The notes under the pieces: generated by a model
What the model saw: only the letters and a program-made list of their open reading frames with translations
Databases searched by the model: none
What the model was told of the DNA's origin: nothing
Assembly (NCBI RefSeq): GCF_003265365.1
Contig: NZ_AUPM01000058.1
Coordinates: 1 to 55,719 of the forward strand
From: Petrotoga sp. 9PW.55.5.1
GTDB lineage: Bacteria; Thermotogota; Thermotogae; Petrotogales; Petrotogaceae
Length of the DNA stretch: 55,719 nt
Reading direction: 5' to 3'
Program-made: the position numbers and the translations under genes
Shown here: piece after piece, positions 518-3,205 of the stretch
Numbering within the stretch: the stretch's first letter is position 1
Layout: each line of letters opens with the position of its first letter

Positions 518-546
518 TTGACTAGCGAGTATTTTTGTGATAAAAT
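518..546 (+). promoter_or_regulatory. sigma-A promoter of the asparagine synthetase unit
   Basis: TTGACT at 518-523 and TAAAAT at 541-546 are separated by 17 bases, close to the consensus housekeeping promoter. Transcription would begin near 553 and would include the leader ORF at 577. Confidence 0.75.
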
Positions 547-576
547 ATAAAAAATTCAGAAGAGTCAGGTGTTCAT

Positions 577-663
577 ATGTTTTACAGGGGCGAAATAATT
601 AGTTTTATTATAAGCTTTAGTAGTTTTCAAAATAATAATAATAACAATACACAGCGTCGGTAA
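577..663 (+). CDS. Asn-rich leader peptide of the asparagine synthetase attenuator
   Basis: A 28-codon ORF with an AGGTG ribosome-binding site five bases before the ATG. Codons 19-24 (631-648) are six consecutive asparagine codons: four AAT, one AAC and one AAT. The last codons (Arg-Arg-stop) form one arm of the antiterminator helix described next. The arrangement is that of trp or his leader peptides: low Asn-tRNA stalls the ribosome on the Asn run, and plentiful Asn-tRNA lets it reach the stop codon. The next gene makes asparagine, which fits the codon bias. The peptide is probably a regulatory by-product only. The role is inferred; the codon run and the helices are seen directly. Confidence 0.85.
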   Translation: MFYRGEIISFIISFSSFQNNNNNNTQRR

Positions 664-696
664 TTTACGCTGAGTGTTGTCATATATTACCGACGC
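652..696 (+). promoter_or_regulatory. antiterminator of the Asn attenuator
   Basis: Arm 1 (654-664) and arm 3 (686-696) are perfect complements over 11 bases. Arm 1 can alternatively pair with arm 2 (652-657 with 667-672, 6 bp). Arm 3 contains the 5' half of the terminator, so the two structures exclude each other. A ribosome stalled on the early Asn codons leaves arm 1 free to take arm 3, giving read-through. A ribosome at the stop codon (661-663) sits on arm 1 and releases arm 3 to the terminator. Confidence 0.82.
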
Positions 697-720
697 CAAA
701 TATTTAGCGTCGGTTTTTTT
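690..720 (+). terminator. attenuator terminator before the asparagine synthetase
   Basis: A 7-bp GC-rich stem (690-696 with 707-713) with a 10-base loop is followed by seven T. It lies 33 bases before the ATG of the asparagine synthetase gene. Its 3' arm is a copy of the leader codons at 654-660, which is why arm 3 can choose between them. Confidence 0.85.
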
Positions 721-752
721 ATTTTCTACAAACATACAGGAGGGGAAATTTT

Positions 753-1712
753 ATGAAAAAGATTTTAGAAATGTCAAAAAAGGTAGATTCTGTTGAAGTT
801 GTAAAGAGTTATTTATCTGATAAAACTTATTATGACGCTTTGATAATTCAATCTGAGATTTTGGGGTCATCAAGAGAATTTCTCGTAGAGAGAGGTTTTG
901 TTGAAATGTTACCAGTAATTATTTCAACAATTACAGATCCTTTGAACCATGATGTTCTAGATGCACAAATTGATTATTATGGGTATAAGTATTATGTGAC
1001 AAAATCGATGATTTTACAAAAGCAAGTTAGTGTTTTAGTTCACGATAAAATATTCTCTTTTTCTCCAAATTTAAGGTTAGAAAAAGAAGAAAAGTATGAT
1101 TCAGGAAGACATCTAATAGATTTTGTTCAGCTTGATATTGAAATAAAAAATAAAAAAAGGGAAGAGATTATGGATTTAATGGAAGATTTGATTATTTACG
1201 TTATAAGAAATGTTTTGGAAAAATATTCTGATATAATAGAAAAGTATCATCCATCATTAAAAATTCCTTCGAAGCCATTTAAAAAGATTTCTGTAAAAAA
1301 AGCAAAAGAACTTTATGGTGATGAATATGAAAAATTGTTGTCCGAACAGAGTGATCAACCTCTTTGGTTGATAGATTTTCCTATTTTGGAAAGAGAGTTT
1401 TATGATAAGCAAGATCCAAAAAATTCTGATATTCTTTTAGATTTTGATTTAATATACCCCGAAGGTTTCGGAGAAGGTATTTCTGGGGGAGAACGTGAAC
1501 ATGAATATGAACAAATTGTGAAAAGAATAAAGTTAAAAGGAAATGGGCTGGAAAGTTATGAAGATTATTTAAAAATTGCAAAAGAAGGATATTTAGAACA
1601 ATCAGCTGGCTGCGGTATTGGTATTGAAAGATTCACCCGATTTATTTTAGGTTTGGATCATGTAGAAAAAACAAGATTGTTTGGAAAAGCGCCTGGGAAA
1701 TTTACAATTTAA
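753..1712 (+). CDS. asnA: asparagine synthetase A-related enzyme (AsnRS-like, archaeal type)
   Basis: A 319-residue class II aminoacyl-tRNA-synthetase catalytic core without the N-terminal anticodon-binding OB domain of AspRS/AsnRS. Visible signatures are the GFVE motif-1 region near residue 50, a motif-2-like stretch (LRLEKEE then GRHLIDFVQLDIE, about residues 110-130) and motif 3 (GCGIGIERFTRF, about 287-298). It resembles the archaeal AS-AR family, which makes asparagine from aspartate, ATP and ammonia, and not the classical E. coli AsnA. The upstream Asn-codon attenuator independently supports a role in asparagine supply. AGGAGGGG is well placed before the ATG. purH follows 23 bases later, probably in the same transcript. 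A remaining possibility is another AspRS/AsnRS paralogue. Confidence 0.82.
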   Translation: MKKILEMSKKVDSVEVVKSYLSDKTYYDALIIQSEILGSSREFLVERGFVEMLPVIISTITDPLNHDVLDAQIDYYGYKYYVTKSMILQKQVSVLVHDKIFSFSPNLRLEKEEKYDSGRHLIDFVQLDIEIKNKKREEIMDLMEDLIIYVIRNVLEKYSDIIEKYHPSLKIPSKPFKKISVKKAKELYGDEYEKLLSEQSDQPLWLIDFPILEREFYDKQDPKNSDILLDFDLIYPEGFGEGISGGEREHEYEQIVKRIKLKGNGLESYEDYLKIAKEGYLEQSAGCGIGIERFTRFILGLDHVEKTRLFGKAPGKFTI

Positions 1713-1735: not shown

Positions 1736-3205
1736 ATGAATATTAAAAGGGCGATAATTTCTGTTTATGATAAGACTAATTTGGAATCATTTGCCAAATT
1801 TTTGTTTGAAAATGGGGTAGAAATAATAAGCACTGAAGGAACAGCAAGATATTTAGAAAAAAAAGGCATATCTACTATAAGAATGTCGGATTTTATAGGA
1901 TTTCCTGAAATTTTAGATGGTCGTGTAAAGAGCGTTGATCCTAAACTTATGGGAGGAATTTTAGCTAAATCTAATAAGAAAACTCATGAAAAGGATATGG
2001 TAGATTACAATTTAAAAAGAATTGATATGGTTATTGGAAATTTCCCCTCTTTTGAGGAGATTGTAAAAACTACCGTTAATGAGGAATCTCTTTTGGATTA
2101 TATTGATATTGGAGGATTTTCTCTTTTAAGAGCTGCAGCAAAGAATTATAAAGATGTTGTTTCTTTGGTAGATCCAAAAGATTATCAACTTGTAATGGAT
2201 AATTTAGAAGATTGTGGAGATGTTCCATTACAATTGAGAAGAAAATTGGCTTTAAAAGTTTTCTTTTCAACATCTAAATATGATGCAAATATTCATAAAA
2301 CTTTTTCTGAGTTGTTTGCGGCTGAAAAATTTGATCATGAGTTTTTTGAGATTTTAGGAAATCTTAGATATGGTTCAAATCCTATGCAAGAAGCTACTTT
2401 GATGAAATTTTTGGGTGAAGACAGCTTTATAGATTTTTTGGAGAATATGACTTTTCATAAAAAACCAACTTTAAGAATTTTAAAAGATATTAAGATTCTT
2501 TTTAAATTAGCCAGTTTATCTGAAGATGAATTTTTAGGATTTGCCAAAAAAGGTGTATTTGTTTTTGGATATTTAACTCCTACTTCAGAAGAAAAAGAAA
2601 AGTTTGTAAAAACAATAAGGGAGTTAAAAGGTGGGGTTATTTATACTGATGATATAAATGTTATTAAGGAGTTAAAAGATTCGAAGCATGATGCATTATT
2701 ATTTTCTAATGATTTTAATAATAGAGAAGAATTGATATCTTACAAACCAATGGTTTTTAAGATCAATAAGCAAATTCTAAATTTAAACGAAGAATACATA
2801 ATTGATGGAGATTTACTTATTAAACAAAATTATCTTGATGTTTATATGGATTTATCTTCAACAGAAAAATTGGCTTTTGAAGTTGCAAAAATTCATAAAT
2901 CAGATACAGTTGTATATGTTAAAGATAATTTAATATGTTCAGGTAATCAATCTTGTTTAAATAGAGAGATAGCATTAAATGCTTTGGAATTGACTTTGCA
3001 GAGATTTGAGATAATTCCTCAGAAGGGAATTATTATTTTTGATTCTCCTGTAAATTCAGACCAAATTGTGCAAACATTATTAGATTGGAATATCGGAAAA
3101 ATTATTGTGCCTTCTAGTTTACCGGGGTATGAAAAATATTTGAAACTATTAGAGGATAATGGTATTAATATTATCACTAGTCAGAGAAGATATCATAGAT
3201 ACTAG
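1736..3205 (+). CDS. purH: PurH-like bifunctional purine enzyme, divergent
   Basis: A homologue of AICAR formyltransferase/IMP cyclohydrolase, the last two steps of IMP synthesis. The N-terminal cyclohydrolase domain (about 1-190) keeps ISVYDKTNL, ISTEGTARYL, FPEILDGRVK and IDIGG...RAAAKN; Lys65, Asp124 and Lys136 match the human active-site Lys66, Asp125 and Lys137. The usual NLYPF tyrosine reads as Phe103 (GNFPSF). The transferase half keeps RYGSNPMQ and a HKSD segment but lacks the KHxNPCG motif that holds the catalytic Lys-His pair. Either the transferase works by a divergent site or the activity is lost. Length (489) is a little under typical PurH. The ribosome-binding site is GGAGG before ATG. 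The gene follows asnA closely. Confidence 0.78.
   Translation: MNIKRAIISVYDKTNLESFAKFLFENGVEIISTEGTARYLEKKGISTIRMSDFIGFPEILDGRVKSVDPKLMGGILAKSNKKTHEKDMVDYNLKRIDMVIGNFPSFEEIVKTTVNEESLLDYIDIGGFSLLRAAAKNYKDVVSLVDPKDYQLVMDNLEDCGDVPLQLRRKLALKVFFSTSKYDANIHKTFSELFAAEKFDHEFFEILGNLRYGSNPMQEATLMKFLGEDSFIDFLENMTFHKKPTLRILKDIKILFKLASLSEDEFLGFAKKGVFVFGYLTPTSEEKEKFVKTIRELKGGVIYTDDINVIKELKDSKHDALLFSNDFNNREELISYKPMVFKINKQILNLNEEYIIDGDLLIKQNYLDVYMDLSSTEKLAFEVAKIHKSDTVVYVKDNLICSGNQSCLNREIALNALELTLQRFEIIPQKGIIIFDSPVNSDQIVQTLLDWNIGKIIVPSSLPGYEKYLKLLEDNGINIITSQRRYHRY

Follow-up and report, generated by a model that had tools for sequence, protein, structure and literature searches.

A predicted asparagine-codon attenuator ahead of the archaeal-type asparagine synthetase gene asnA in Petrotoga and across Thermotogota

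The window analyzed here, 55,719 nt of Petrotoga sp. 9PW.55.5.1, is contig C58 of a 2.08-Mb genome (99.9% complete). Its first features are a 5S rRNA and a small hydrophobic ORF, after which come the leader region and coding sequence of asnA. The asnA product scores 437.9 bits against the NCBIfam model NF005054 "asparagine synthetase A" (cut-off 309), finds its best PDB match in the archaeal asparagine synthetase A 3p8t (E 1.2e-56), and matches PF00152 alone in Pfam, lacking the anticodon-binding domain that would mark it as an AsnRS. Four genes of the genome carry PF00152 (their open frames count 598, 510, 443, and 334 codons; the 334-codon one is asnA), and we take the AsnRS-type frame of 443 aa on contig C46 as the separate AsnRS; GatB is also present. 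No convincing glutamine-dependent asparagine synthetase was found in the genome (best PF00733 match E 8.7e-4), and asnA is the only clear candidate for an asparagine synthetase there. The first-pass annotation had read the leader described below as independent support that this AsnRS-like enzyme makes asparagine in vivo. The assignment itself agrees with the NF005054 score (438 bits) and the 3p8t match, but because these already identify asnA, the leader is supporting rather than first evidence, and the enzyme claim is less new than had been implied; the leader adds support of an in vivo type for the function of the predicted AsnRS-derived enzyme. The downstream gene probably lies on the same transcript as asnA, and resembles a divergent or changed PurH, with the likeness limited to its first 226 residues and below both PurH cut-offs.

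The leader region contains, in order, a promoter, a short ORF with six consecutive Asn codons, an antiterminator of 11 perfect pairs, and an intrinsic terminator with seven T (Table 1), each lying where the first-pass annotation had placed it; a 13-bp protector hairpin, which that annotation had missed, completes the set. The protector contains Asn codons 23–24, and the 5′ arm of the antiterminator (arm A) sits within the 5′ arm and loop of this hairpin. The segment 631–720 folds with a z of −5.0. In computed folds, the free RNA adopts protector plus terminator (−27.8 kcal/mol), and an RNA ending before arm D prefers the pairing of arms A and C (A:C, −18.4 kcal/mol) to the protector (−14.3 kcal/mol). 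Runs of five AAY codons occur at only three places in the genome, the leader included; one of the other two lies outside any leader-type ORF and the other within a 628-codon frame.

Table 1. Features of the asnA locus (window coordinates) and of related elements elsewhere (locus coordinates).
Feature	Position	Strand	Details
Promoter	518-546	+	TTGACT-17-TAAAAT, direct sequence reading; −35 TTGACT 518-523; −10 TAAAAT 541-546 preceded by TG (extended −10); 17-nt spacer; 10/12 consensus matches
Probable Shine-Dalgarno of leader ORF	567-571	+	AGGTG, 5 nt ahead of ATG 577
Leader peptide ORF	577-663	+	28 codons, MFYRGEIISFIISFSSFQNNNNNNTQRR; stop codon 661-663
Regulatory codons, six Asn in a row	631-648	+	Codons 19-24, AAT AAT AAT AAT AAC AAT
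Protector (anti-antiterminator) hairpin	644-680	+	644-650 and 652-657 paired with 667-672 and 674-680; 13 pairs
Antiterminator 5′ arm (A)	654-664	+	GCGTCGGTAAT; overlaps final leader codons and stop codon; 11 perfect pairs with 686-696
Antiterminator 3′ arm = terminator 5′ arm (C)	686-696	+	ATTACCGACGC
Intrinsic terminator	689-720	+	689-696 with 707-714; 690-696 with 707-713 gives 7 pairs, 8 counting 689/714; T714-720 (seven T)
Shine-Dalgarno of asnA	738-745	+	AGGAGGGG; direct sequence reading
asnA, archaeal-type (AsnRS-like) asparagine synthetase A	753-1712	+	319 aa; NF005054, PF00152, PDB 3p8t
Divergent PurH-like gene	1736-3205	+	Starts 23 nt after asnA
GltD-tail attenuator, example	L244:433-1950 and 1909-2004		Before amtB and glnK
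Thr-coded element	L248:697-804 (G020); L250:1300-1408 (G019)		Leader MLKYKLSITTTTN..GKRRCKF; four Thr codons (ITTTTN); terminator; before thrS
Asp-coded element	L249:3301-3392 (G019)	minus	Leader MSVLSFKKVDDDIIAP; three Asp codons (VDDDI); terminator; before 460-codon AspRS/AsnRS-like gene
Related element	L247:986-1080 (G020)		51 bits; leader MVLSLIRPGFAEGLNFNICVMVIINSAGSRCVF; before ABC transporter ATPase
Bipolaricaulota loci with CCCCUUGGG-Shine-Dalgarno pairing	L167, L177, L181, L182, L184, L185, L186, L190		

Strong matches identify the enzyme, or a piece of it, in 49 of 103 Thermotogota genomes (20 of the 21 from Petrotogaceae), the other genomes of the phylum matching via AsnRS only or giving no match. 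Wherever the upstream DNA of a Thermotogota asnA is readable (48/48 genes, spread over five families), an Asn-rich leader ORF precedes it, with identity among the enzymes concerned falling to 43%. The conserved Asn run expected for Petrotogaceae thus extends far beyond that family, and no Thermotogota homologue was seen to lack either the run or the helices; examples include Athalassotoga saccharophila (L041, the same as L076) and Kosmotogaceae MAGs (L104, L107). The runs span 2–9 codons, the exception being L046 (DND N), and Mesotoga-type leaders have only 2–4 Asn codons. The 49 leaders analyzed further (47 from Thermotogota, 2 from Caldisericota) hold 197 AAT and 67 AAC codons. In 30 of these 49 (17 of the 18 from Petrotogaceae), the leader ORF is preceded by a TTGACA/TATAAT-like promoter (at least 10/12 matches), and AGGTG or AGGAG stands ahead of homologous leader ORFs at the equivalent position.

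Two details of this set concern individual leaders. Mixtures of Asp and Asn codons (VDNDN, NNNDN, VDNN) occur in L046, L051, and the Mesotoga-type L053, L058–L061, and L063, and such leaders could sense Asp, the substrate, besides Asn. An apparent loss of the leader in one genome (G001) was rejected: the leader was found ~0.54 kb upstream (61068-61171 of contig C20, locus L065), beyond an inserted repeat element that separates the attenuator from asnA.

Terminator and antiterminator with a common arm C are present in all 49 leaders, as against 2 of 1960 dinucleotide shuffles of the same leaders, such that the mutually exclusive helices proposed for the window recur in every homologue analyzed; in L046, the antiterminator is weak in an ungapped search. 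Covariation, which the first-pass annotation had proposed as a check, is seen for both helices in an alignment of 18 Petrotogaceae leaders: 90% of cells are paired in the antiterminator (13 pairs) and 98% in the terminator (10 pairs), and each helix has four pairs changed on both sides, terminator columns 76/100, for instance, being AU in nine sequences and GC in nine. For each helix, the covariation score was matched by 0 of 500 shuffles, a control that does not remove relatedness, and helices slid along the alignment were 18–56% paired. An upstream ORF with at least four consecutive Asn codons precedes 37 of 50 Thermotogota/Caldisericota asnA genes and is found in 1 of 1000 shuffled upstream regions; the longest Asn run is 2 ahead of archaeal asnA-AR genes (n = 29) and 1 ahead of AsnRS genes (n = 9).

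We then folded each leader in defined ribosome states, taking the leading edge to lie 13 nt beyond the A-site codon's first base. When the middle Asn codon is the one occupied, an antiterminator of at least 5 A:C pairs forms in silico in 48 of 49 leaders; when the last Asn codon is in the A site, A:C still forms in 36 of 49. A ribosome at the stop codon covers arm A in all 49 leaders, and the terminator then forms in each. The features of an attenuator that sequence can show are present (a leader ORF with initiation signals and an Asn run, a terminator, and a mutually exclusive antiterminator), and the predicted fold of the window also provides a protector hairpin that would give termination without translation. 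Judged from sequence, asnA is very probably under the control of a ribosome-mediated transcription attenuator whose signal is charged tRNA-Asn; transcription start, leader translation, stalling, and read-through are the steps that we infer.

The proposed switch would work as follows. RNA polymerase would start near position 550, and a ribosome would translate the leader. When Asn-tRNA is plentiful, the ribosome would reach the stop codon and cover arm A, leaving arm C to pair with 707–714, and transcription would stop at the T run. When Asn-tRNA is scarce, the ribosome would stall in the Asn run and hinder the protector hairpin, arm A would stay free to pair with arm C, and asnA would be transcribed for want of a terminator. 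The untranslated RNA folds into protector plus terminator, and the default state would therefore be off. Stalling at the first Asn codon would put the leading edge of the ribosome at ~643–644 and leave the protector hairpin free to form; antitermination would thus need deeper stalling or a kinetic preference for A:C.

A scan of GTDB genomes, together with searches of three further groups, places Asn leaders beyond Thermotogota. They precede asnA-AR in Caldisericota (for example MCRYLFSYEVNRNNNNSIGIGRLG and MERVRLAVANNNNNNNLPGAGRFG), and are absent from the 29 archaeal asnA-AR genes with readable upstream DNA and from those Caldisericota whose asnA groups with the archaeal ones. In three such Caldisericaceae loci (L201–L203), a leaderless, archaeal-type asnA directly follows a frame resembling an ABC transporter ATPase, and the gene may be a replacement or a separate transfer. 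In Aminicenantia, all 17 readable loci (L147–L163) have an Asn leader, ending ...NNNNVPF (followed by the stop) or NNNVPF; a GTCCCC/GGGGAC hairpin encloses the stop codon, no terminator is visible downstream, and pairing between the sequence preceding the Asn codons and the Shine-Dalgarno is not consistently better than in shuffles. Many asnA loci of Bipolaricaulota also have Asn leaders (...GPANNAPHGA and ...VNNPFFFVHNPNASF, each followed by a stop), whose short Asn groups are singly inseparable from chance by statistics, the motif recurring across loci. At least eight of these carry CCCCUUGGG directly before the Asn codons, where it could base-pair with the Shine-Dalgarno of asnA at roughly −20 to −25 kcal/mol, a value reached by no more than 2 of 200 shuffles in eight loci; this suggests a possible translational attenuator.

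In a tree of 86 enzymes built by a quick method, one branch (SH-aLRT 92) unites Thermotogota with the leader-bearing Caldisericota, another (SH-aLRT 90) unites Aminicenantia with Bipolaricaulota, and the leaderless Caldisericota genes fall among archaea. This branching matches the presence of the leader, such that leader and gene appear to travel together. That the differently built leaders of Aminicenantia and Bipolaricaulota retain Asn codons points to Asn as the signal.

Mutually exclusive helices with a terminator are common to all attenuators, and would equally suit a riboswitch or protein-binding leader, in which the helices answer free asparagine or a regulator and the ORF is incidental. 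We give this a slim chance: the element matches no Rfam family and has no conserved core of the ligand type, only the Asn codons and their frame being kept beyond the helices; AAT and AAC are exchanged freely; the differently built leaders of different clades have only Asn codons in common; and the stop codon is placed in every case so that arm A is covered. A slimmer chance still attaches to a leader that acts mainly on asnA translation, on mRNA stability, or via Rho, with the terminator secondary. The pairing of CCCCUUGGG with the asnA Shine-Dalgarno in Bipolaricaulota and the Aminicenantia leaders without a visible terminator speak for it, and indicate that Asn leaders can use other outputs, but in the window and in all Thermotogota, the terminator and T run are intact and covarying.

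Could the Asn run simply be low-complexity AAT slippage in an AT-rich genome, ahead of a constitutive terminator? AAT repeats do exist elsewhere in the genome, but AAC is used as well (67 of 264 Asn codons), in frame, at 48/48 loci; the runs are absent from archaeal asnA, AsnRS, and shuffled controls, and the antiterminator is there in all leaders tested, rendering slippage remoter again. Least probable, to the point of being negligible, is a T-box, in which uncharged tRNA-Asn would bind the leader directly, as before Firmicutes asn genes. The gene function, sensed tRNA, and terminator type would all be the same, yet the T-box covariance model has no match up to E = 5, the antiterminator lacks T-box sequence, and the ORF takes up most of the ~170-nt leader, so that a stem I would not fit. 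Ribosome-mediated attenuation through Asn codons is the reading retained in what follows.

The element also appears to have other targets. A covariance model built on it and run over 21 Petrotogaceae genomes detected the element a second time (72 bits) in five of the six genomes of the window's genus (G016, G013, G015, G014, and G017; L242–L246), the window's own genome giving none in this search. Here, the NNNNN run is a C-terminal extension of GltD (tail NNNNNKQRRLKTL), a protein of 506 aa that is homologous to solved GltD as far as residue 494. Behind the tail come a protector, an antiterminator, and a terminator (folding at −37 kcal/mol, z −8.1), then amtB (PF00909) and glnK (PF00543); the five copies are nearly identical and thus count as one case. 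Another Petrotogaceae genus has related elements, with Thr codons in two genomes and Asp codons in one (Table 1), which score 35–42 bits, near noise, such that the case rests equally on the match between codon and gene. Weak R1 matches below ~36 bits, inspected at six places, were ordinary terminators or chance. We consider it likely that Asn-tRNA charging serves as a general nitrogen signal in these bacteria. Asn-codon switches would govern asparagine synthesis across several phyla; in the genus of the window they would also govern ammonium uptake, the tail of GltD (glutamate synthase small subunit, ...SSNNNNNKQRRLKTL) acting as the leader for amtB-glnK. In the related genus, the scaffold would have been recoded, with Thr codons ahead of thrS and Asp codons ahead of an AspRS-like gene.

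E. coli asnA is controlled by AsnC, a DNA-binding regulator, and Firmicutes asn genes by T-boxes that bind tRNA directly; both regulate the same function as the Petrotoga element, but without a leader peptide. The closest likeness is to the proteobacterial and actinobacterial trp, his, leu, ilv, thr, and phe leaders, which combine a short ORF, holding consecutive codons for the amino acid that is made, with a protector hairpin, antiterminator and terminator with a common arm, and a biosynthetic gene 3′ of these. The Petrotoga-type element differs in its Asn codons, its asnA target, and its Thermotogota host, and also in architecture, the antiterminator arm overlapping the last leader codons and the stop codon as well as the first hairpin's 5′ arm and loop, whereas classical leaders use the 3′ arm of that hairpin. 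Archaeal asparagine synthetase A (AS-AR; PDB 3p8t, 1nnh) is the type of enzyme controlled in Petrotoga, but the 29 relatives with readable upstream DNA have no Asn leader. Leaders of hisS/hisZ in Bacilli (PMC2965389) are similar in lying outside Proteobacteria and Actinobacteria and in having been recognized via a codon run and terminator, and differ in using histidine and in preceding a synthetase gene instead of asnA; the main text of that survey (Naville and Gautheret, 2010) names neither asparagine nor Thermotogota. A further survey of attenuation that includes aminoacyl-tRNA operons (Lopatovskaya, Seliverstov and Lyubetsky, 2010, Mol Biol 44:128) is cited in PMC4833913. The element matches no Rfam family, and no asparagine leader peptide was found in open-licence full texts, including the main texts of two comparative attenuator surveys, in keeping with the first-pass view that attenuation by Asn codons is not a known form of asnA control.

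Leader-peptide attenuation as such is known; Asn as the signal, asnA as the target, and Thermotogota as the host appear new. An element that is simple, phylum-wide, and carried with its gene into Caldisericota would make Asn-tRNA charging easy to read out genetically, and its variants (the GltD tail, the Thr and Asp copies, and the possible Shine-Dalgarno sequestration of Bipolaricaulota) illustrate how switches of this kind are duplicated, retargeted, and remodeled.
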